IMG/VR virus record: IMGVR_UViG_3300024946_000007
Location: 1-26,577 of that record
Reading direction: 5' to 3' (one strand)
Origin: a virus
Length of the DNA: 26,577 nt
How positions within the stretch are numbered: position 1 is the stretch's first letter; the number at the start of each line of letters is the position of its first letter. The notes below the pieces were generated by a model. That model did no database searches. It was not told where the DNA came from and was given only the letters and a program-made list of their open reading frames with translations. This document shows positions 5,701-23,971 of this stretch, piece by piece. Made by a program: the position numbers and the translations under genes.

Positions 5701-8700
5701 ATGGCTAACGTAGTATATCGCGGTAAATCAATCACATTCCCAGGCGGCATGAGCGAGGCAGAAATATCGCAAGCAATGCCTTCAATCGCGGATCAGATAG
5801 ATGCGGATTTTGCACAAGCGCCACAGCCGGAATCGCCTAAGCCTCAATCATTCCTATCTCAAGTAAAAGACGATATTGTTAAAGCTATTACACCAAATAG
5901 CAAATACAAGTCAGTTGTTGATGGCATGGATGGAAAGGTTATTGATGATCGCCGTGCCATTGAGCGCAAAGGCGCACCAGTCACGGACCAAACTTTCAAT
6001 AAAGTTAAGTCTTCCTACGAAAATGCAACACCACAAAAAAGAGCAGAACTTTCCAATCGCAAAGATTGGCTAGGCAATGTCGCATCAGAGGTAGATAAAC
6101 AATATCAAGAAATTAAAGAAGATGGCATTGGTGATAATCGCAAAGAAGCGAAAATTAACAAAGTCATGAAGAACTCAAATGCTGACTTTAACACAGCTAA
6201 AAACATGGTTGAGCAAGGCGAGGACGGAAACGACATTGCGACCATAGCAAACGGCTTGCCACAGAGAGAGGTCGTTGATTACGCACTTGATACCGTAAGG
6301 GCAGTAGCTAAGATCGCCCCGACAACAGGGAAGATGGCAACAGATATTTTAGGGTTAGGCACGAATTACATCCCAGTAGTGGGTGACATGATTATGTCGA
6401 TGGGTGAAGGCTTCGATGATGCCATTAAGTACCAGACAGATAAGCAGTCGCCAGAGTTGCGCCAGAAGTCTATTGAGCTACAAAACATTGTAAAAAATGG
6501 TACAGGCATTCAACTAACAGAGTTTTTAACTGCAAACCCATCTGTTTTATCTGATGTTGCAATCCCTTCACTTGGCTTTATGTTAGCAAGTGGTGGCGTT
6601 GGTGCAGGCGTGACTAAACTAGCCAGTGAAAAGGCAGCAGCGAACTTAACTGCTAAATATGCTGGGCGTAATGCAGAGTCAATCAAAACGCTAGCTGCAA
6701 GGTATGGCCGTGAAAAAGGCACACAAGCCGCTATTGCCATGAACGTTGGTGTAAACGCAGGCGGCGCATTTAGCGAGGCAGAAGGTGACGCACGCACTAA
6801 ATACACGGCAGCGGCAATTGCTGGTATTACTACGCTACTAGGCAATAAGATTACTAAGGGCGGTGCGGAAGGCGTAATTGCCAGAGGGAATAGTGGCGTT
6901 TCATCATCAGTAAATCGCCTTGCTAATGCAGCAAAAACTGCAGGTAAAGAATCTTTGCAAGAATATGTTGAAGGTGGTGGCCAAGGATTAGGCGTACAAA
7001 CTGGCGAATACGCATTTGGCAATCGAGAAGAAATAGACTTTGGACAAATCAACAGACAAGGGTTATTAGAAGCGGCAGCAGCAGGCGTGCCAGGTGCAGT
7101 TGTCGGCGCGTTGCAAGGTGCTGGATCTTTTAAGCAAGTTACTTCAAATGTCCGTGTTGATGGTAACACTCAAGGCGACATTGACGCTGAAACACTACAA
7201 GTTGAGTTTGACGCTAAACAAGCCGAGGCAGATACAGCGCTTGCCAATATTACCAATCCCGATGCAAGTATTGATGACGCTATTGCGCTTGCTGAAAAAG
7301 CAATTGATATACCCGTGCCACAAACAGGCTTGTTAAATTCAATCAGTGATGATGCCTTACTTGCAGAAGTGCAAAGCGCCACAGAAGCCATACCAGCAAG
7401 CGATATTTTAGGGGATGAGAATGTCAGCGATACGACTAATGCCACTACCGAGCTGGCTAACGAAACCATTACAGGCTCAAGTGATAACATACAAGGAAGC
7501 TTGGGAGATTTACCTAATCAGCTTGCAGGACGGAGCGATACAGGACCAATTGATAACTCTACCGAAGCATCTGCACAAGGCAGCGGAAGCGATCAACTTA
7601 ATGGAAATGGAATACAAGGGAACGATGCAATAGCTATACTTAATGGCGAAGATGCAGTATCACGTCCATTCGCCCAAGCCACAGACGACTTCTTGCCGAA
7701 GATGCGCAGCATGACCACTGATGCAAAAGTCATTAGCCAAATTGATGAAGAGTTGAAGTTACGTGGCATTACTAATGTCGATAGCGTAAACACAACAGCG
7801 GAACGTGTCGATGAAAAGGTAAAAGGCGTACATGTTGGTGAGAAAATTAACAAAGAGTGGACCGCATTCAGTCCTGAATCTGGCACGCTAAACATTCCAC
7901 GCTCAGAAATGCCGCAAGTAAAAGCAGAGCACCGTGGCGCGATGGTTAACTTTTTGAATGCTAGAGGCGTGGACCACACGCAAGAAACGGTACCAGCATC
8001 ATCACTTAAACCAACACAGCAAGAGTTTTCAGAAGCCAAGGTTAAGAAGGCAAGCAAGTATGCAGGCGGTGACCGTTCAATCTTGGTTTCATCTGACAAC
8101 CATGTGTTAGACGGCCATCATCAATGGCTATCTAAATTAAACAAAGGCGGCGATGTTGATGTAATCCGTTTGAATGCGCCTATTGCTCAGTTGCTTGATG
8201 ATGTTAAAGAATTCCCAAGCTCAACCGTTGAGAGTGGTGCTACAACATCTAAAGTACAAAAGCCAAAATCACCTAAACAATACAAACCTAAGACGCTACT
8301 AGCAACCCTACGTGACATTGGCGGCATTAAGCTATCTGAAAAACAAGATGTTACAGGCGAAGTAAAAGGCTTTGCGCCTGGTGGATATAACCAAGTATTC
8401 AAACAAGCATCTAACCGTTCACTCAAGGGCTTGATTGAATCAGGTGATTTAGTCGATTACCTACCATACAACATGCGCCTTGAATCTAACGGCGCTAATG
8501 ATGATGCTTTTGATTCAACAGAGGCGTATGATTACCTTTCGGAAAAAATACGAAACGGTGAATCAGTATTGCCGTATGCAGTTGTTGAAGAGGCTCAAGC
8601 GAATCAATACTACCAAGACGCAGGAGCAACAGCTGAAAGCGATGTTCAAGAGGCGGCAGAACTATTAACAGAGGATGAAATCAATGAGCAACTCAGACAA

Positions 8701-11700
8701 GCCACAAACGAGGAAAGAGAAACTGCTACAGAGGCTCGCGTCATTAACACCGAGCGCGAGAATGGCGATACTGGAAGCGGCGAAAGAAGTACAACAACAA
8801 CGCAAACTAACGCCAGTCAGCAAGCGGAAGTAACAGACAGTAAAACCGACCTACTAGGCGACAATACTACCGCCAAACAAGCCGTTGCTGATGCCGAGCG
8901 TGCAAAAGACGCTAAGCGCAATTCAGGCAATGACAATCAAGATACATTCACTCTAACTGGTTCAAACAGTGAAGCAGATCAGGCCGCAGCAGCCGGGGCG
9001 CAAGATTTGTTCTCAGCGCCAATCAAGCAACAGTCAAATACAGAAGCTAGCACTGGCGAGGATGTTGCAGAAAATACAGCCAATCAATCAAGCAACGGTC
9101 AAGCAAATGACGAAGTAGCCAAAGCCGCAGAAGCGCTCACCGCCGCAGGCGTTAAAGGCAAGGAAAAGCTAGACACCATTAAAGATGTGCGCGAAGGTAA
9201 AGTCACGGCTGATGAGGTGGCTGATGCTTATGGTGCCCCAAACGAAGCGGCAGAAGAGGATGTGGCAGATCAAGCGCCAGTAGGCCGCATTGATGACTTC
9301 GGCGAGAAGCTAGAAGGCGCTAAAAAAGACCTTTGGAAAAACTATCAGAAAGCCATGGGCGATGAATTGCCTGCTGATGCCAAAGACATTACTTTATCTA
9401 AACACTTTCCTGAACCTGACTACGATAACCTAATTGCTAGTGGCATGGATATTAAAGCCATTGCTGCAATCAAAGCGATGCGAGATGAAATTCCTAGCAA
9501 ACCTAAAATGCCAAGCAAGGTACGTAGATGGGTAAGTGAGCTTACTGCTTTGCGCGAGTTTTCAAATGGACTAATCAACGGAAGCAAAAGCATTGATGAT
9601 GTATTAGGTATATTAAGCGCGAGCAATGTAAATAATAAATTTGCCGACAGAATCAATCTGTATGGTGAAATTGGGTATCCAGCGTTTAAGTCTGCCAAAG
9701 GCTACAAAATTACTGGTGGATGGACTTCATTTGATAAAGGCGTTGCAGAAGCAGGCAAGAAAACTGCGCTAGAGTTTCCAAATGGCAAGCGTGAATATTT
9801 CAATGACCGACAAAGTGCCGTAGATGCATTACGCATTAAGCTTGAAGTTGCACCAGAAGGTACAGAACGTAAAACGAAATTGGACGTTTATCGAGTTACC
9901 GCCACTGGCGATTTAGTCATTGGTAAAAAGGTCGCATCAAATAAATATATTGACCTTAAAGGTGGGTTTAAATCACCTAAAGAGGCGTTCCAATATTATG
10001 CAGACAATGAGGCTGAGTTGTTGCAGTTGCTTGAGCAACGTAAAAACGTGCGCCCAGAGCGCAGAAGTACAAACAACCCTCGCGTTGGAATTGACTATCG
10101 CTTAGGACAAGATGTAACACCTGAGAAGTTTGCCGCAGAGTTTGGCTTTAGAGGGGTACAGTTTGGTAACTATGTAGAGCAATCACGCCGACCAAGAGAT
10201 TTAAACAATGCTTATGACGCATTGCTTGATCTTGCGAACATTATTGGCGTACCGCCTCGCGCTATCTCATTAAACGGCACTTTAGGCTTGGCTTTTGGTG
10301 CGCGTGGCAAAGGTGGGAAAAATCCAGCAGCAGCGCATTTTGAACGTGGTGAAGTGGTGATTAACCTCACTAAAGTGAATGGGTTTGGTAGCTTGGGCCA
10401 TGAGTGGTTTCATGCCATGGACAATTACTTTTCAAAAGCCCGTGGTGACAATGAATACCTAACACAGAAGCCACAACAAAAGCGTACATACAAAGCAGGG
10501 CAGGGCTTTGAGCTGGATGAATCTATCAGGCCAGAAGTGCTAAGTGCATTTAAGAATCTGATGGATGCTATTCGCAAATCAGACTATTACACACGCTCAT
10601 CTAAAATTGACAATACGCGCACCAATGATTATTGGAGTACCGCAGAAGAGTTGGCTGCGAGAGCGTTTGAAGCATATTTAATTGCTAAGTCTAAAGACGC
10701 TGGAAGATCTAATGACTATTTAGCCAACATTGAAGATGAGGACGTTTACGAGATTGCTAACCAAGCAGCTAAAGATTTTGGCGCATTTGAAGATCCATAC
10801 CCATATCCAACAAGAGCAGAGCAAGCGGAAATAAATCCATTGTTCGATGCGTTGTTTGGCGAGTTAAAAACCAAAGAAACCGACAGTGGCAACGTGGTGA
10901 TGTTTAGCCGTAGTAATGCCACCCCATACCGTGGCATGGACAAAGAAAAAGCACAATCAATTATTGATGAGTTGCAGAAGTCACACAAAGGCATACCTAA
11001 GGTAAAGTTAGTTGACCATCATTCTAAACTGCCAATTCCTTCAAGCATTATTGAGGAAATTAACGGAAGCGAACAACTACTCATTGAGCGCTTAGAGTTG
11101 GTCACTCAGTTACCTAGCGAACAAAACATTCAGGCCGCATTGAGCGTAAGAATCAATGACGTGGAAGGCCTATATTCAAATGGTGAAATATGGATTAATA
11201 CCAATGCCATTAACAGTGAGGAGCGCTTAAGAGAAGTGTTTGCGCATGAAGCAATCGGGCATATGTCGGTTGAGAGCATGCTGAATGAAGTTGATAAAAC
11301 TTTATTCCCTAAATTGCTAACGCAAGTTAAAACATTAAATAAAGCAGGCAATAAGTACATTCGCGGCATTTGGGATGATGTTAAACAATCGCAGCCGGAT
11401 ATTGACGATACCGCAATGGCTGGTGAAGTTTTAGCTTTTATCGCTGAGCGTGGCGACCAAGATGTTGAAATGTCACCTGTTGTTAGGTCAATATGGCAGC
11501 GCTTAATTGATGGCATCAAGGCATTCGCAAAACTGGTATTCAATGTTGAGATGACTGATGTTGATGTTAGAGATATTGTTTCAATGGCTTCACGCTATGC
11601 TAAGGGCGAGGATGTTGTTAGCCTTATCTCAAGCAATAATATGTATTACAGCCGCAACAACCGCGTACCATCAAAAGCAGAAGGCGACACATTCCTAACC

Positions 11701-14700
11701 GCTGCGCTTGAGTTCACTGCTAGAAACGAAGATTTCTTTGAGAACGCCCCATCTGATGCAAAAGATATAGCTGATATTGCCAGCGATATGAACACGCAAT
11801 TCCGTGTTGAACCATTTGGTAAGTCACAAACAAAACTAGATGGCGCTGATACCGCTTGGGAGGTGTTTTTACCAAACGCTAAATATCGCTCAGCCGTTAT
11901 CTATGAAAAGGGCAATGAGGTTTGGATTAACGTATCTCGCTTACGTTCAGGCGCAGATATTGGTAGCCGTATTTATTCACTGGCCGCAGCTTATGCATAC
12001 AACAATGACAAGGTGTTTATTGGTGATCCGCTTGGTTTAACCGCCAAGGCTTTCTACCGCCGTGCAGAGAATATGCTGTCTAGTGCATTGAAGTACGGAA
12101 CTACTAAGCACATTGCGCCTCATGTGGCTCAAACAGACCCAGATTTGTACTATTCATTCGATGAAAAAACAAAAGAATTTGGCGAATCAGTGCGTAAAAT
12201 CAACTGGAAAACAGGTGACGATGCACACAACATTAAAGAACTGATTTATACTGTTTATCACGGTGCAATTACTAATTTACCAGAACTTAAAAATGTCATC
12301 TTTGACCCAACAACACAAGACTTTACAACCATCAATGGTGAGCAATTCACCAATGATGATTTTGAGCGCGTGTTATCCGACTATTACGCCAGAACAGATG
12401 GCGACAGTGGATCACGAATTGTTGATGGAAGTTCACAAGATGCTACCGTCAACGCCACTGAAACGAGCAATCCTTATCGCGCAGGAATCCGCACGGCAAA
12501 GAGAGCAGCTTTCTACAATACCTTTCTACGCGAAAAGAGCCGCGAAAGAAGGAGTGAAATACTGGGCACGTATGTGCGCGAGTTACAGAATCGCGGACTG
12601 GCAGACAGCTTAAGAGGCACGTTCTACTCACGCAGCACGCCTCAAACTGAAACACCACAATTCAAAGCATGGTTCGGCAACAACGGCGACTTCAACCCTA
12701 CTAATCCTGATATTCGTTTTAGTCGCACTTCATCGCAAGGCAATTTAAACAACGAAATACCAGCCGAAACCACAGCGCAAAAGATTCAACGTATAGGCCA
12801 AGATAAGTTTAACCGTTTTAAAGTTTTGCAAGATTTTCTAGTTGAAAAAGGCTTGGAATTAGACGAAGCCGCAGACGTTTACTTAGCGGAAACGCTCATG
12901 AGTGGGCGTATATCTACCCGTAAAGAGGACTTTAGAGAAGGCCAAGTAGAGCCGTTAATCAAGCGCACACAAGCGGCTGATTTAAGCATGGAACAAATAG
13001 GCGATTTTCTAAAAGCGCAACATGCGCCAGAGGCAAACAAACGCGCTAGACAGTTGCAGAACAGAGAAGATGCAACTGCATTTGGCGTAAGCGATGCAGA
13101 AGCGCAAGACGCAATGGACGCTTTTAAAGAGTTGCCAAACTTTGTGGAATTGAAAAGCATCGCTAACGATTGGCGCAAAATTACCGAGCAAACTAAAAAA
13201 ATAAAAATCGATTCTGGGTTATTGACTCCCGAACTGGTGGCGGCTTGGGAAAGCGCTTATGAAATGTATGTGCCAGTTAAGGGCGGTGACGATGCTGGCA
13301 CGACCACCGGCACTGGACAAGGCTTAAATGTTCGTGTTAGAAACAAACAACGTCTAGGCCATGGGTTGCGCGATGAAGCGATTATTGAAAATATTTTGCG
13401 CGATCACGAATCAGCTATTACATTGGACGAAAAAAACCGTGTAGGAAAAGCATTAATTCGCTTTGCATTAGCGGCCAAAAACGATGACATTATCACGATT
13501 GATAAGCCCGTTAAGCGCCAAGTATTAAAGCAAGGAGAAACAGCTTATGTGGTGGCTAATAAAGGTATTGATACCGCCACATTCGCCACGCGAAAAGAAG
13601 CCGAGCTGTACATTCAATCACAAGTAGCGTTTGGCCAAACTAAATCAAACTTTAGCGTTGATCAAACAAAAGACCCTGTGCGCGTGATGTTACAAGCGTC
13701 ACCACAATTAGCTGATAACGAAGTGACGGTTTACGTGGGGGGGCATGCGATACGCTTGCAAATTAATGACGAGATTGCAGCGCGTGAATATAAAAACATG
13801 GGCGTTGAGCATTTGAATGCCATATTTTCGGCAGGCCGTGAAGTGAATAACTGGCTATCAAAAGCCTATACTGGTTACAGCCCAGACTTTATTTTTACCA
13901 ACCCGATTCGTGACTCGATTCAAGGCGCGATTACATTAACAGGCAATTTAGGTGGCGTAACTACTGCAAAAATATTTGCTAACTATCCAACGGCTGTTAA
14001 AGAGTTGGTTAAGCACTTTAAAAATAAAGGTTCATCTGCTTTAGTTAATGAATATCGAGCACAAGGCGGCTCTACAGGTGGCGCATATCTAAGTGATTTA
14101 GAGCGTATAGGCAATGATATTCAATCTAGCTACAATGAGTATCAAGGGGCTTTAGCGACTTATAAATCGGTTTATGAGAAAAATATTGCTAACGGTAAAA
14201 GTGCAAAAGCAGCACATACAATGGCGAGTTTAAAAGCGGGTTCAGCAGGCTTTAAAAAGATACCGATTATTGGGCACTTTTTGAAACTGATGGAAAGTAT
14301 TAACGCCATTACTGAAAACGCTTTACGTGTAGCGACTTATAAAACATTAACCGAAAACGGCATAAGCAAGGGCAGGTCTGCGGCACAAGCAAAAAACTTG
14401 ATGAACTTCAACCGTAAAGGTGAGCAATCAAACGCAGCAGGTGCGCTCTACCTGTTCTTTAATCCAGCCGTACAAGGCACTAAGTTAATTCAAGAAGCAT
14501 TAATGGAATCACCATACAAACGCCAAGCTCAAGCGCTTGCTGGCGGCATGACGGCTATGGCCTTCACAATGGCAATGATGGCGCTGAATGGCGATGATGA
14601 AGATAAAGATAAGTGGAATAAAACGCCAGACTATATCAAGGACGGTAACATTGTGTTTGATATGTTCGGCACGCAATTTACATTGACGCTGCCTTATGGC

Positions 14701-15543
14701 TACCGTGTATTTTGGTCTTTAGGTAATGTCATGGCAGATGCTACGCAAGATGGCGCTAACTATGGCAAGCTTGGCAATCGTGTTGCATCTAGTTTGTTTG
14801 CAAACTTCTCGCCAGTTGGGAACCCAATGGAAGGCGAAAATGGTTTATTCCAGCTACTGCCAACATTACCAAAGATGGCGTTAGCACCAGGCGTAAATGA
14901 GGATAGCTTTGGTCGACCAATAACACCTAAAAAATGGAACCCTGCCACGCCAGATTCACAGTTAATGAATCGAGGTACGCAGGGTAGTTTATATGATGGC
15001 GTATCTGAAAAGCTTAATAGCTTTACAGGTGGCAGTAATTTTAAATCTGGAGTGGTGGACGTATCGCCAGAAACATTAAAATTCTGGGTTAAATCTCTAA
15101 CGGGTGGCGCGGGGCAGTTCGCTTTTGATTCTGCAAATATCGTTAAACAGGGGGCGCAAGGGGTATCTCCGCAGAACCTTAAAGACATTCCAATAGCACG
15201 TAAGTTTGCACGCGAAACAGGCGTAACAGATTCACGTTCCGCTTTCTGGGAAAGAAAAAATGAAGCAGATATGGCTGCAGATCAATTAGCTTTGGCAAAA
15301 AAAGCACACGATACAGCGGCTATTGCTGATTTTATAAATGAAAATGGCATGCTGATTAAAATGTCAAAAATGTCTGATAGGATGTTGAAAATGGCTAACG
15401 GTAAGCGTGATGCTATTGGCGCTATCAAGCTTAATGAAAACTTAACGCTTAGTGAAAAAATTAAAATGATTAATGAGCTTGAAGATGAAGAGAAAAAAAT
15501 TTACGATAAATACATCAATATATTTGATAAGCAATCAAATTAA
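5701..15543 (+). CDS. Giant polyvalent virion protein (3280 residues)
   Basis: One uninterrupted frame of 9843 bases. Segments in order: 1-30 with YRGKSITFPGGMSEAEI, a start common to phage internal virion proteins; 275-305, 370-385 and 453-477 Gly/Ala-rich hydrophobic segments; 555-700 low-complexity linker; about 700-840 a ParB-like region with D804-G-H-H-Q-W809; about 855-975 another conserved region; 1000-1130 linker; about 1196-1460 a region with RIDDFGEKLEGAKKDLW; about 1462-1707 an LPD1-like zincin with H1567-E-W-F-H1571; about 1740-1975 a second zincin-like region with H1849-E-A-I-G-H1854; 1985-2306 a conserved unknown domain; 2314-2342 remnant of an ART-type module; 2360-2570 helical; 2690-3030 an LPD38-like C-terminal region with N-F-N-R-K-G-E near 2902-2908. 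Such proteins are thought to enter the cell with the DNA and counter host defences. The start has a weak ribosome site; the N-terminal motif supports it. Confidence 0.9.
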   Translation: MANVVYRGKSITFPGGMSEAEISQAMPSIADQIDADFAQAPQPESPKPQSFLSQVKDDIVKAITPNSKYKSVVDGMDGKVIDDRRAIERKGAPVTDQTFNKVKSSYENATPQKRAELSNRKDWLGNVASEVDKQYQEIKEDGIGDNRKEAKINKVMKNSNADFNTAKNMVEQGEDGNDIATIANGLPQREVVDYALDTVRAVAKIAPTTGKMATDILGLGTNYIPVVGDMIMSMGEGFDDAIKYQTDKQSPELRQKSIELQNIVKNGTGIQLTEFLTANPSVLSDVAIPSLGFMLASGGVGAGVTKLASEKAAANLTAKYAGRNAESIKTLAARYGREKGTQAAIAMNVGVNAGGAFSEAEGDARTKYTAAAIAGITTLLGNKITKGGAEGVIARGNSGVSSSVNRLANAAKTAGKESLQEYVEGGGQGLGVQTGEYAFGNREEIDFGQINRQGLLEAAAAGVPGAVVGALQGAGSFKQVTSNVRVDGNTQGDIDAETLQVEFDAKQAEADTALANITNPDASIDDAIALAEKAIDIPVPQTGLLNSISDDALLAEVQSATEAIPASDILGDENVSDTTNATTELANETITGSSDNIQGSLGDLPNQLAGRSDTGPIDNSTEASAQGSGSDQLNGNGIQGNDAIAILNGEDAVSRPFAQATDDFLPKMRSMTTDAKVISQIDEELKLRGITNVDSVNTTAERVDEKVKGVHVGEKINKEWTAFSPESGTLNIPRSEMPQVKAEHRGAMVNFLNARGVDHTQETVPASSLKPTQQEFSEAKVKKASKYAGGDRSILVSSDNHVLDGHHQWLSKLNKGGDVDVIRLNAPIAQLLDDVKEFPSSTVESGATTSKVQKPKSPKQYKPKTLLATLRDIGGIKLSEKQDVTGEVKGFAPGGYNQVFKQASNRSLKGLIESGDLVDYLPYNMRLESNGANDDAFDSTEAYDYLSEKIRNGESVLPYAVVEEAQANQYYQDAGATAESDVQEAAELLTEDEINEQLRQATNEERETATEARVINTERENGDTGSGERSTTTTQTNASQQAEVTDSKTDLLGDNTTAKQAVADAERAKDAKRNSGNDNQDTFTLTGSNSEADQAAAAGAQDLFSAPIKQQSNTEASTGEDVAENTANQSSNGQANDEVAKAAEALTAAGVKGKEKLDTIKDVREGKVTADEVADAYGAPNEAAEEDVADQAPVGRIDDFGEKLEGAKKDLWKNYQKAMGDELPADAKDITLSKHFPEPDYDNLIASGMDIKAIAAIKAMRDEIPSKPKMPSKVRRWVSELTALREFSNGLINGSKSIDDVLGILSASNVNNKFADRINLYGEIGYPAFKSAKGYKITGGWTSFDKGVAEAGKKTALEFPNGKREYFNDRQSAVDALRIKLEVAPEGTERKTKLDVYRVTATGDLVIGKKVASNKYIDLKGGFKSPKEAFQYYADNEAELLQLLEQRKNVRPERRSTNNPRVGIDYRLGQDVTPEKFAAEFGFRGVQFGNYVEQSRRPRDLNNAYDALLDLANIIGVPPRAISLNGTLGLAFGARGKGGKNPAAAHFERGEVVINLTKVNGFGSLGHEWFHAMDNYFSKARGDNEYLTQKPQQKRTYKAGQGFELDESIRPEVLSAFKNLMDAIRKSDYYTRSSKIDNTRTNDYWSTAEELAARAFEAYLIAKSKDAGRSNDYLANIEDEDVYEIANQAAKDFGAFEDPYPYPTRAEQAEINPLFDALFGELKTKETDSGNVVMFSRSNATPYRGMDKEKAQSIIDELQKSHKGIPKVKLVDHHSKLPIPSSIIEEINGSEQLLIERLELVTQLPSEQNIQAALSVRINDVEGLYSNGEIWINTNAINSEERLREVFAHEAIGHMSVESMLNEVDKTLFPKLLTQVKTLNKAGNKYIRGIWDDVKQSQPDIDDTAMAGEVLAFIAERGDQDVEMSPVVRSIWQRLIDGIKAFAKLVFNVEMTDVDVRDIVSMASRYAKGEDVVSLISSNNMYYSRNNRVPSKAEGDTFLTAALEFTARNEDFFENAPSDAKDIADIASDMNTQFRVEPFGKSQTKLDGADTAWEVFLPNAKYRSAVIYEKGNEVWINVSRLRSGADIGSRIYSLAAAYAYNNDKVFIGDPLGLTAKAFYRRAENMLSSALKYGTTKHIAPHVAQTDPDLYYSFDEKTKEFGESVRKINWKTGDDAHNIKELIYTVYHGAITNLPELKNVIFDPTTQDFTTINGEQFTNDDFERVLSDYYARTDGDSGSRIVDGSSQDATVNATETSNPYRAGIRTAKRAAFYNTFLREKSRERRSEILGTYVRELQNRGLADSLRGTFYSRSTPQTETPQFKAWFGNNGDFNPTNPDIRFSRTSSQGNLNNEIPAETTAQKIQRIGQDKFNRFKVLQDFLVEKGLELDEAADVYLAETLMSGRISTRKEDFREGQVEPLIKRTQAADLSMEQIGDFLKAQHAPEANKRARQLQNREDATAFGVSDAEAQDAMDAFKELPNFVELKSIANDWRKITEQTKKIKIDSGLLTPELVAAWESAYEMYVPVKGGDDAGTTTGTGQGLNVRVRNKQRLGHGLRDEAIIENILRDHESAITLDEKNRVGKALIRFALAAKNDDIITIDKPVKRQVLKQGETAYVVANKGIDTATFATRKEAELYIQSQVAFGQTKSNFSVDQTKDPVRVMLQASPQLADNEVTVYVGGHAIRLQINDEIAAREYKNMGVEHLNAIFSAGREVNNWLSKAYTGYSPDFIFTNPIRDSIQGAITLTGNLGGVTTAKIFANYPTAVKELVKHFKNKGSSALVNEYRAQGGSTGGAYLSDLERIGNDIQSSYNEYQGALATYKSVYEKNIANGKSAKAAHTMASLKAGSAGFKKIPIIGHFLKLMESINAITENALRVATYKTLTENGISKGRSAAQAKNLMNFNRKGEQSNAAGALYLFFNPAVQGTKLIQEALMESPYKRQAQALAGGMTAMAFTMAMMALNGDDEDKDKWNKTPDYIKDGNIVFDMFGTQFTLTLPYGYRVFWSLGNVMADATQDGANYGKLGNRVASSLFANFSPVGNPMEGENGLFQLLPTLPKMALAPGVNEDSFGRPITPKKWNPATPDSQLMNRGTQGSLYDGVSEKLNSFTGGSNFKSGVVDVSPETLKFWVKSLTGGAGQFAFDSANIVKQGAQGVSPQNLKDIPIARKFARETGVTDSRSAFWERKNEADMAADQLALAKKAHDTAAIADFINENGMLIKMSKMSDRMLKMANGKRDAIGAIKLNENLTLSEKIKMINELEDEEKKIYDKYINIFDKQSN

Positions 15544-16896: not shown

Positions 16897-17868
16897 ATGG
16901 CCAACGTAACAAAGACCGCATCCGGCAAGTGGCGTTTTCAAGTAACTGTTAATTACAAGGCGCAAGTAAAAACTTTCGCAACGAAAGCAGAAGGCTACGT
17001 CTGGGAGGAATCTCTTAAGGCTGGCAAAGATAATAAAACGCCATCGATTACATTCGGCAAGCTCCTAGAAAAGTACCGTGATGAAGTTTCTGTTAAGAAA
17101 AAAGGCTCACGATGGGAAACAATCCGCATCAACAAGTTTCTTAACGATGAAGTCGCCAAGATTAAGATAGGCGATTTAACTAAGAATACATTTGCAGAAT
17201 GGCGCGACAGGCGGCTTAAAGAAGTTAGTGCTTTATCGGTGTTACGCGAGTGGGCTTTATTAAGTCATTGCTTACAGATTGCTATTACTGAGTGGGAGTA
17301 CCTGAAAGATAATCCAATGAAAGGGCTAAAGAAGCCACAAGGCCAGCCACCTAGAGATCGAATCATTACAGATGACGAAATAGACAGGCTATGTTTTGCA
17401 CTTAACTATTCTAACAATGCAATTCTAACTACTATAACTAGCCGAGTTGGTGCTGCTTTTATGTTTGCAATTGAAACAGCTTTTCGTGCGCAAGAAATTT
17501 GCAATCTAAAATGGTCAGATATAAATGATCGCGTTGCGAAGATAAATGATTCTAAAACTTATACCGGCATTAGGTCTGTGCCTTTGAGCAAGGCGGCGAT
17601 GGCCATACTTGAGCAGTGCAAAGGGCTTGATAAAACGTATGTATTTAATATCAATACTAGCCAGCTTGATAGTCTATTTAGAAAGGCTAAGAAGCTAGTT
17701 GCTATTGACGATCTGCATTTCCATGACACTAGGCATTTAGCTATTACGCGCCTGGCATCTAAGTTAGAAGTGCTTGAATTGGCGCGCGTTGTCGGTCACA
17801 AAGATTTGAAAATGTTGCTGGTTTATTACAACAAAGCCGCAAGTGATTTAGTTTCAAAATTAGACTAG
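16897..17868 (+). CDS. int: Tyrosine-family phage integrase
   Basis: A 323-residue site-specific recombinase with an N-terminal arm-binding/SAM-like region (about 1-145) and a catalytic domain (about 155-323). The catalytic residues are visible: R197 in T-A-F-R-A-Q-E, K220 in the beta-hairpin, H276 and R279 in F-H-D-T-R-H, H301 in V-V-G-H-K-D and nucleophile Y310. It would join attP to the host attB, inferred to be a tRNA-Leu 3' end. There is no clear Shine-Dalgarno before ATG 16897, suggesting low translation. It is the only rightward gene right of attP and converges on the excisionase gene, overlapping it by four bases. Confidence 0.95.
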   Translation: MANVTKTASGKWRFQVTVNYKAQVKTFATKAEGYVWEESLKAGKDNKTPSITFGKLLEKYRDEVSVKKKGSRWETIRINKFLNDEVAKIKIGDLTKNTFAEWRDRRLKEVSALSVLREWALLSHCLQIAITEWEYLKDNPMKGLKKPQGQPPRDRIITDDEIDRLCFALNYSNNAILTTITSRVGAAFMFAIETAFRAQEICNLKWSDINDRVAKINDSKTYTGIRSVPLSKAAMAILEQCKGLDKTYVFNINTSQLDSLFRKAKKLVAIDDLHFHDTRHLAITRLASKLEVLELARVVGHKDLKMLLVYYNKAASDLVSKLD

Positions 17869-21180: not shown

Positions 21181-22374
21181 TTACGCCGCCTTCAACTCAC
21201 CAAACGATTGAGCCAACCAACGCTCTGCGGTCTTTGCCTCAACTTTGTATGTAGTAGCTACTAGGGCGATGATTGCTTGAGCAGTAGGGCGCTTAGCGTT
21301 TGCAATTTTCTGTATTGGTTCTGCAAACACATTCTTAAAGTCAGATTCGTTAAATGTCGCGTCAACAACAGCACCGTCATCGTTCTTAGCCTCTGCAATA
21401 ATCTTCGCTTCAAGCTCTTGGCGCGCTTTGATTTCAGCGGCCTCTTTAGCGGCTTTCTCTTCAAGTTCTGTATTTAGCAAAACAGCCTTTTGCTTCAATA
21501 GAAACTGCATTGATTTTGATGCGGCGGCCAGTGCCTCTTCGGTAAATTCTTGATACTCTTTTTCAGTGATAGAGATTAGTTCAAGCTCTTCTGCAAGCGA
21601 TGCAAGCTGACTAGAAAAGTCACAATCAGATCCTTTAATGATGTAGTTCTTAATGTTCTGGATCTTTGCTTTGATGCCATCCACACGCGCAGCCTCTTTA
21701 GCCTGTTCAGCCGCTTCCGCTTCTGCTGCTTTGTTTTGTGCCTCTAACTGCTCTTGCGCTTTTTTGCCTGCTAGAATGCTATTAAGTGTTTCCAGCGCAC
21801 CTTTAAGTGCATATTCAGCCTCAATGAAGCGCTCACCGAACTCTGCAGGTGTAGGGATTAGCGGTGATAGCTCCGCGATAGCCTCTTCAATGTCTGCCAC
21901 TGTTTTATTCATCACACCAAGAGGCTTGTTTTTGATGGCATCAATCTTGTTTTGAATAGCGGCCTTTGCCTGTTCTTCGGCTTTTAGCTTCGCTGCTTTT
22001 TCATCCTCTAGGCGTTGCTCTTCTGCTTTAATGTCTGCATCGAACTTTTCTTCATGTGCCTTAACCGCCGTTTCAATCTCGGTGTATGCTGATTCCAACA
22101 ATTTACCAATAGCTATAATTGGCGCTTTACGTGCTGCACGCTCTTTATCGCAATCAAGGCGAATAGTGCGGAATAGGGCGCGACATTCTTTAGCCGTTGC
22201 CATGCCTTCTTTAGTTGCTATGGCATAAGTTACTTTTGATGAAGATTTAATCGCTGCCTGTAGGCGGTTACTGAATGGCTCATATACTGCTGCAACGTAA
22301 GTTTTTGGGTCTAGCGTAACCAACTCTTGGCTAGCAATTTTTTCTGCTTCTACTGTTTGTAATGGTGCGTTCAT
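21181..22374 (-). CDS. Long coiled-coil protein of the recombination module (DUF1351-like)
   Basis: A 397-residue protein, mostly charged coiled coil rich in Glu, Lys and Ala (about 95-145, 205-235 and 300-335). The N-terminal part has A-I-A-T-K-E-G-M-A-T-A-K-E-C-R-A-L and K-E-R-A-A-R-K-A-P-I, which resemble DUF1351-type proteins encoded next to phage RecT or Erf recombination genes. The C-terminus (about 345-397) is a compact helical piece. The start overlaps the exonuclease stop by ATGA. It probably works with RecT and YqaJ; the role is not known from sequence. Confidence 0.72.
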   Translation of the reverse strand: MNAPLQTVEAEKIASQELVTLDPKTYVAAVYEPFSNRLQAAIKSSSKVTYAIATKEGMATAKECRALFRTIRLDCDKERAARKAPIIAIGKLLESAYTEIETAVKAHEEKFDADIKAEEQRLEDEKAAKLKAEEQAKAAIQNKIDAIKNKPLGVMNKTVADIEEAIAELSPLIPTPAEFGERFIEAEYALKGALETLNSILAGKKAQEQLEAQNKAAEAEAAEQAKEAARVDGIKAKIQNIKNYIIKGSDCDFSSQLASLAEELELISITEKEYQEFTEEALAAASKSMQFLLKQKAVLLNTELEEKAAKEAAEIKARQELEAKIIAEAKNDDGAVVDATFNESDFKNVFAEPIQKIANAKRPTAQAIIALVATTYKVEAKTAERWLAQSFGELKAA

Positions 22375-23045
22375 GATGTTTTCCTTTGGTCGTAATTATT
22401 TAAAAGTGCTTCAATGGTTTCTGGCTTGAACTTATCCAGCTTTTCCCTTACTTCACCTTCTGCTACTAATACTGTTTTCTCTAAATTTGCGATGTATTTG
22501 TCATCGCGCCATACTCTTTGTATGTATAGCTTTGCGTGCTCTGGCATTCGCGGATCAAAGCTCACCCAATCCCACCAATCAAACTCGTAGCACCAGATGC
22601 AACCTTGAACCTGCGGCATAAACTCTTTTTCGTTCATTCCATTTATAAAGCGGTCAATGTGAATTTTTGGGTCTTTAGGGCACTTAAACTCTGATCCACC
22701 TTTTTGCTCTGAAATAAGACCATCTGGTGAAACCCCTACAAAGCTATAAACAGGATGGTCTTTAAACTGCGCTTGAGTAACTCTGTTTCCTGTATAAAAG
22801 CTATATGCTTGCCTTGCGAAAGGCTCTACATCACGACCCCATTTAAGCGCGTAGGAATCCATGCCAGTATCAATATAATCATTGGTTAGACGCTCCACTA
22901 CGATCTGATTGATTAGGTCTGTGTAAGCCTTATTTCCTTTAGCTAACACATCTACAAAGCGAGAGCCAGTAAACTTTCCAGCACGCGCCTTGTACCAATC
23001 TTCGGTTCTTTGCTCTGGGCTGATTAGATTCTGGTTCTCAAACAT
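22371..23045 (-). CDS. YqaJ-family phage exonuclease
   Basis: A 224-residue PD-(D/E)XK nuclease of the YqaJ / lambda-exonuclease family, which resects double-stranded ends to give 3' single strands for the annealing protein. Visible motifs: R-T-E-D-W-Y-K-A-R...T-G-S-R near the start, G-R-D-V-E74-P-F-A, S-P-D108-G-L, E119-F-K121-C-P and the late Q145-x-Q147. All expected catalytic acids and the lysine are there, so it should be active. It starts at ATG 23045 overlapping the RecT stop (TAATG). Confidence 0.92.
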   Translation of the reverse strand: MFENQNLISPEQRTEDWYKARAGKFTGSRFVDVLAKGNKAYTDLINQIVVERLTNDYIDTGMDSYALKWGRDVEPFARQAYSFYTGNRVTQAQFKDHPVYSFVGVSPDGLISEQKGGSEFKCPKDPKIHIDRFINGMNEKEFMPQVQGCIWCYEFDWWDWVSFDPRMPEHAKLYIQRVWRDDKYIANLEKTVLVAEGEVREKLDKFKPETIEALLNNYDQRKTS

Positions 23046-23971
23046 TATTGATCTGCCTCTGTTTTGTTCATTTGATCTACAAAGTCAGCATCAACTGCAG
23101 GCTTTTGGTTAAGGTCTGCTTCCTCAGCTTTAGCTAAGATTCTTAGGTATTCAGGCTCACCAATAAGCACTCTTTCTTCACGCGCTGTTTTTTTCCATTG
23201 GGTCAAGAATGGCGCACTGCCTTTTGCGGCAAATGCTTCAAGCGCGTTAATCAATCCTGCGCGTTGCTCTTCTTGGCCTGAATCAATTACACGGCCTTGT
23301 TGCTGCTCTTGAGCTTGGCGACCATATTCAGCGCCGTTACGTGGGCGAGGCGGTGCAGCGTTAATGTCTTTAATTGGTGAATCTAACAATTCATCGTATG
23401 TGTAAACGCCAAGGATTGCAGAAGGGGCATAAAGTCTTGACCAGTTTTTTACCTGCAAGTAGCTCATCTGCTGTTTTACGTTTGTTTTCCAGAGAGGACT
23501 ATTTTTAGTGGTAACTGAATTACTGTTTAGCCACTCGCCCCAAGTGATTTCACTCTGTCCACGAAGAACCGCTCCTACTCTGCAACTAACAGACATAGAC
23601 GCACCGCTGCCTACTTCATCTTTATATTCATAGCTGAATGTTCCAGATATGGCTTTGCTTGAACAAACAACAGCATTAACTAACTGCGCCTCATACCCCA
23701 AGGTGCTGCCAACCAAGTGTGTTTTTTGGGCGACAATGAACGGATCCATGCCCCAATTCATTGATTGCATGACAACTGCAGCACAATCACCTTCATTGCC
23801 TTGCAAATGTTTAGGAATGCTAACTTTGCTTGATGCCATTAACTTCGCTATTTTTGTAACTCTAGCCATGTGGTCATCACTGCTCATGATTGACAGTGAC
23901 GACAAGCGACTTGGCTCAATAGTGTTAAGTTGAGAATCTTGCTGTACTGCTAACTCTGTATTTGCTTCCAT
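23045..23971 (-). CDS. recT: RecT-family single-strand annealing protein
   Basis: A 308-residue protein. Residues about 62-195 are the RecT core: A-A-V-V-M-Q-S-M-N-W-G-M-D-P-F, G-Y-E-A-Q-L-V-N-A and S-P-L-W-K-T-N-V...W-S-R-L-Y-A-P, ending L-G-V-Y-T-Y-D-E-L. The C-terminal third is Gln/Glu-rich and probably flexible. It would coat and anneal single strands made by the adjacent exonuclease during phage recombination or concatemer formation. AAAGGT is well placed before ATG 23971. Confidence 0.93.
   Translation of the reverse strand: MEANTELAVQQDSQLNTIEPSRLSSLSIMSSDDHMARVTKIAKLMASSKVSIPKHLQGNEGDCAAVVMQSMNWGMDPFIVAQKTHLVGSTLGYEAQLVNAVVCSSKAISGTFSYEYKDEVGSGASMSVSCRVGAVLRGQSEITWGEWLNSNSVTTKNSPLWKTNVKQQMSYLQVKNWSRLYAPSAILGVYTYDELLDSPIKDINAAPPRPRNGAEYGRQAQEQQQGRVIDSGQEEQRAGLINALEAFAAKGSAPFLTQWKKTAREERVLIGEPEYLRILAKAEEADLNQKPAVDADFVDQMNKTEADQ

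Follow-up and report, generated by a model that had tools for sequence, protein, structure and literature searches.

A giant polyvalent protein encoded in a phage record of 26,577 bases (the whole stretch of DNA analysed here, hereafter the window) contains a short segment in which the opening and closing borders of an ADP-ribosyltransferase (ART) module are fused at one glycine, with the catalytic core absent. We propose, with a probability of roughly 80%, that this segment (the scar) is the relic of an ART-PolyVal module whose core was lost between its borders, through either an internal deletion or an out-of-register crossover. Along its 3280 residues the protein comprises LPD5, a zincin-like HEWFH motif, LPD1, LPD37, a helical domain and LPD38. 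All four LPD domains score above their curated Pfam cut-offs within this single protein, which places it among the polyvalent proteins that carry LPD families. The features relevant to the scar are as follows.

5701–15543, plus strand: giant polyvalent protein of 3280 residues, assigned from its open reading frame, Pfam matches and an HExxH motif
11704–12534, plus strand: LPD37 (PF18853, 193.7 bits), residues 2002–2278, directly upstream of the scar
12622–12633, plus strand: FYSR tag closing the LPD37 module (TFYSR, 12619–12633), approximately where resemblance to relatives L200 and L003 ends
12643–12678, plus strand: ART opening border QTETPQFKAWFG, ART profile positions 3–19
12676–12726, plus strand: ART closing border GNNGDFNPTNPDIRFSR, ART profile positions 148–164 of 165
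12727–13500, plus strand: linker and start of the helical domain, common to relative L131 (70% identical)
14608–15195, plus strand: LPD38 (PF18857, 94.6 bits), residues 2970–3165

Shortly 3' of the giant gene lies a phage integrase gene (16897–17868, plus strand); the phage is probably temperate.

Translation of 12640–12726 in the frame of the open reading frame 5701–15543 yields residues 2314–2342 as PQTETPQFKAWFGNNGDFNPTNPDIRFSR, within which residues 2315–2342 (12643–12726) consist of QTETPQFKAWFG followed directly by NNGDFNPTNPDIRFSR. The preliminary description of this DNA had reported an ART opening and an ART closing motif merged at a single glycine, and both the translation and the ART profile bear this out; its placement of the fused motifs at residues 2314–2342 also stands, apart from the trivial slip that the string TPQFKAWFG begins a few residues after 2314. 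The glycine codon at 12676–12678 is common to the two borders, which occur in the correct order and in frame. Against a profile of 165 positions built from 94 distinct complete modules, the scar aligns at positions 3–19 and then 148–164, with none between.

Scored separately against the profile of complete ARTs, the two border fragments reach 16.3 and 21.7 bits, compared with at most 4.4 bits for 300 shuffles of the giant protein, and the giant protein with the scar removed gives no match to the profile at all; the resemblance to ART borders is therefore not due to chance. The scar contains both FKxWFG and GNxGxFDPxNPDIR, the border motifs of ART-PolyVal. The active site described for this family comprises His, Tyr and Asp residues in strands 1, 2 and 5 (PMC5512222), and all three are missing from the scar together with profile positions 19 to 148. 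Because the core with these residues is gone, the remnant can only be a linker between modules, ending in IRFSR, and no enzyme. The scar has no Pfam match, the giant protein has no ART match at the PF18760 (ART-PolyVal) model cut-off, and PF18760 is absent throughout a 53.9-kb contig of the same phage (L002).

The appearance of these borders in intact modules was examined by scanning viral contigs for the closing motif, which returned at least 120 stretches; 127 motifs were read from the fetched loci. Among the matches listed, an IKSA-type ART tail preceded the closing motif in every case (127/127), and an opening-type motif lay upstream in the same frame in 107 of the 127, at a distance of at least 93 residues; one of these 107, at 1240 residues in L037, is spurious. 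Openings follow the pattern QTxTPxFKxWFG, mostly with DSKVVD next, and the core of intact modules usually spans 90–200 residues. The shortest opening-to-closing distance among the matches listed, 93 residues, belongs to L116, whose ART is possibly partly deleted. Tandem ARTs occur in L079, L099 and L030, where a closing motif is followed at once by another opening (NPDIRFSARQTDTPAFKRWFG). The scar was considered as a spacer of such an array and this was rejected, since the tandem order (closing then opening, as in L079 and L099) is the reverse of that in the scar.

Within 2.9 million viral contigs, only the same phage (two contigs) carries the fused form, as judged by patterns that require particular residues and that variants may have escaped. 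A gapped WFG-to-PDIR[FY] pattern matched five stretches in the same collection and was in frame solely in L008, which is the same phage. A stricter gapped pattern applied to 84,980 genomes matched two stretches (L196 and L197), both by chance: one is out of frame and the other lies in an unrelated protein. A longer-gap scan yielded L213, where the visible ART is complete, and the matches in named phages and plasmids that were opened (L214–L217) are ordinary ARTs. At the DNA level, 3 kb around the scar found no match among named phages. The exact opening QTETPQFKAWFG occurs in no viral contig besides those of the same phage, a point against the loss of an ART; a near-exact closing occurs in one further viral contig (L212), as the end of an IKSA-type ART tail. 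The idea that many unrelated polyvalent proteins might carry this short form as a linker in its own right thus finds no support, the form being unique to one phage in the collections searched.

Turning to the position between LPD37 and the helical domain (the slot), relatives of the downstream helical domain number 66 in viral contigs, with the same phage counted; a search of genome contigs with the region downstream of the scar gave no relatives. In six of the viral relatives (L138, L140, L151, L153, L156 and L181), an ART runs up to, or nearly up to, the beginning of the helical domain, which in these distant proteins is about 28–32% identical to that of the window protein. No ART precedes the helical domain in L131, L132 or L133–L136, and the slot of the close relatives L131–L136, L200 and L003 holds neither an ART nor a scar. 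PF18760 is likewise absent from records L002, L003, L131–L134 and L200, in a search that found ARTs in five records. Other modules follow LPD37 in L201, L202 and the Erwinia phages Pavtok and PEp14, with no ART in the stretch read. The expectation that a relative would hold a full ART between these motifs finds partial support in the six distant relatives, which have an ART in the slot, and none in the close ones. A complete ART between the same neighbours, as in-frame deletion would presuppose, is lacking from the close relatives, and no relative was found in which LPD37 is followed by a complete ART, which counts against the ART-loss reading, as does the low identity (about 30%) of the helical domain in the distant proteins that have an ART.

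The slot is a recombination breakpoint joining two lineages of the giant protein, as judged by sequence comparison. The window protein is 72–97% identical to L200 and L003 over residues 1700–2300 and then about 25% identical, the drop falling at about residue 2311. Its identity to L131 is 20–38% over residues 1200–2300 and 62–82% beyond about residue 2400. The tag at the switch reads FYSRSTPQ in the window protein, LYSRSTPQ in L131, FYSRSTSN in L200 and MYSRSKQS in L003, and short DNA matches occur at this FYSR-type tag. The ART borders inside the slot match neither sampled lineage. Elsewhere along 5701–15543, the protein is a mosaic at several points, with block-wise gains and losses of similarity to L131, L200 and L003; residues 701–800 are 85–96% identical to all three.

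We propose that the LPD37 module and the C-terminal helical/LPD38 part were once separated by an ART-PolyVal module of the Tox-ART-HYD2 type. Recombination would have joined the glycine codon ending FKxWFG to that of the closing GNNGxF in frame, the same event excising the enzyme core. It may have taken place at very short matching DNA, commonly 2–4 bp at the two glycine codons, and could have been a crossover out of register while modules were being exchanged; the in-frame product would have been retained since the remaining protein was needed. Matches of 2–4 bp at the glycine codons occur in 82 of the 94 intact modules, and matches of at least 9 in 2 of the 94. Because these codons match over so few bases, the join most likely arose by illegitimate or microhomology-guided recombination and persisted because it was in frame. 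Genes for a RecE-like exonuclease and a RecT-like annealing protein are neighbours at 22371–23971 (minus strand). DNA matches as short as those at the glycine codons are below the length that annealing proteins normally use, and a link to RecT-type annealing is therefore weak. The phage's own pair may nonetheless have helped, and it is a possible cause of the mosaicism of the giant protein; RecT-type recombinases foster exchange between diverged phage sequences (PMC3945230).

Loss of the ART core could have come about in two ways. One, which we regard as a serious candidate at somewhat less than even odds, is that the scar is a module-exchange junction: it would mark the crossover point itself, with no protein ever having internally deleted an ART. 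That the left parent contributed LPD37 and the ART opening while the right parent contributed the ART tail and the helical/LPD38 part is likewise possible, if short of an even chance. The switch in similarity from L200/L003 to L131 exactly at the slot favours such an exchange, as do the RecE/RecT-like proteins of the phage, which belong to the class that drives mosaicism of diverged phages (PMC3945230). However, neither sampled parent lineage has an ART in the slot, so that both parents would have to be unsampled, and the breakpoint may be an older event, independent of the loss of the core. The other is a simple internal deletion of a complete ART in an already mosaic protein, which we also hold to be possible but not quite an even bet, and the same may be said of replication slippage or annealing at short repeats as its route. 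Here the state of the borders (full length, ordered, in frame and with a single common glycine codon) and the 2–4 bp of matching DNA usual at the glycine codons of intact modules are in favour, whereas no such precursor was found and the coincidence with the mosaic breakpoint is left unexplained. The scar coincides with the exchange point, and an out-of-register crossover of two ART-bearing parents would yield a product identical to that of an internal deletion.

Two further accounts dispense with the loss of an ART from the phage. A short independent linker that resembles both ART borders by chance, without ever having belonged to an enzyme module, is unlikely: linkers between modules often end in a hydrophobic residue followed by [FY]-S-R/K, which makes IRFSR alone unspecific, but both borders score far higher against the ART profile than shuffles do, the closing motifs among the matches listed are ART tails without exception (127/127) and no second, independent fused copy was found. 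An assembly artefact that collapsed a complete ART is very improbable. The metagenomic origin of the record and the repetition of ART modules in many genomes would be compatible with one, yet a second viral contig, IMGVR_UViG_3300024908_000010 (L002), has the identical junction within 14,038 bp that align without a mismatch, which makes misassembly unlikely, and no other ART copy that could trigger a collapse was found in the phage. We therefore retain the loss of an ART core as our reading. The preliminary description had gone further and posited a precise in-frame loss of the enzyme with its borders left behind; loss is the best account, given the unique form of the scar and the ARTs in the slot of distant relatives, but no earlier complete ART is seen in the lineage. 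A precise in-frame deletion is thus plausible and unproven, because no precursor occurs in the close relatives and the scar lies at an exchange point.

Four hydrophobic/x-[FY]-S-R tags mark where successive modules of the giant protein end: VMFSR (10897–10911), MYYSR (11641–11655), TFYSR (12619–12633) and IRFSR (12712–12726). Many relatives have a comparable tag ahead of the helical domain. Across the fetched loci, 156 giant proteins contain [FY]SR 154 times in total against about 71 expected by composition, with varied codons, an excess due in part to the choice of loci by the ART closing motif. Such tags could be candidate sites of processing by the zincin-like domains; the literature yielded nothing specific on a cleavage tag in polyvalent proteins. 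That the slots between modules, with their conserved borders and hydrophobic-[FY]-S-R tags, might be recurrent exchange sites, where phage recombinases insert, remove or swap enzyme cassettes in frame and of which the scar would be an emptied one, is a speculative idea that we consider rather doubtful.

The scar gives a clear view of modules turning over in a giant protein that is presumably injected, with the enzyme gone and both edges still legible, although it alters no known function. It offers a concrete junction at which to test in-frame phage editing, which is usually inferred just from differences between domain lists. We know of no description of a border-only module relic inside a polyvalent protein. 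The words 'degenerat', 'deletion' and 'linker' are absent from the main text of PMC5512222.

Among known systems, the scar compares most directly with ART-PolyVal (PF18760; Iyer et al. 2017, PMC5512222), with which it shares the borders QTxTPxFKxWFG and GNxGxFDPxNPDIRFSR; it also sits in the same type of carrier protein, and the six distant relatives have their ART in the corresponding slot ahead of the helical domain. Unlike ART-PolyVal, it is without the whole core, including His, Tyr and Asp, has no Pfam match and is not an enzyme. The mosaic junctions attributed to RecT/Redbeta in temperate phages (PMC3945230) likewise combine a sharp switch of lineage with RecE- and RecT-like genes; in the window phage, where the recombinase may have played a part, the switch lies inside a single reading frame and brings with it both ends of a third module. 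The protein resembles the LPD37/LPD38 polyvalent giants in its LPD5, LPD1, LPD37 and LPD38 domains and its zincin-like HEWFH motif, and it is set apart from them by a module relic that consists of borders only.
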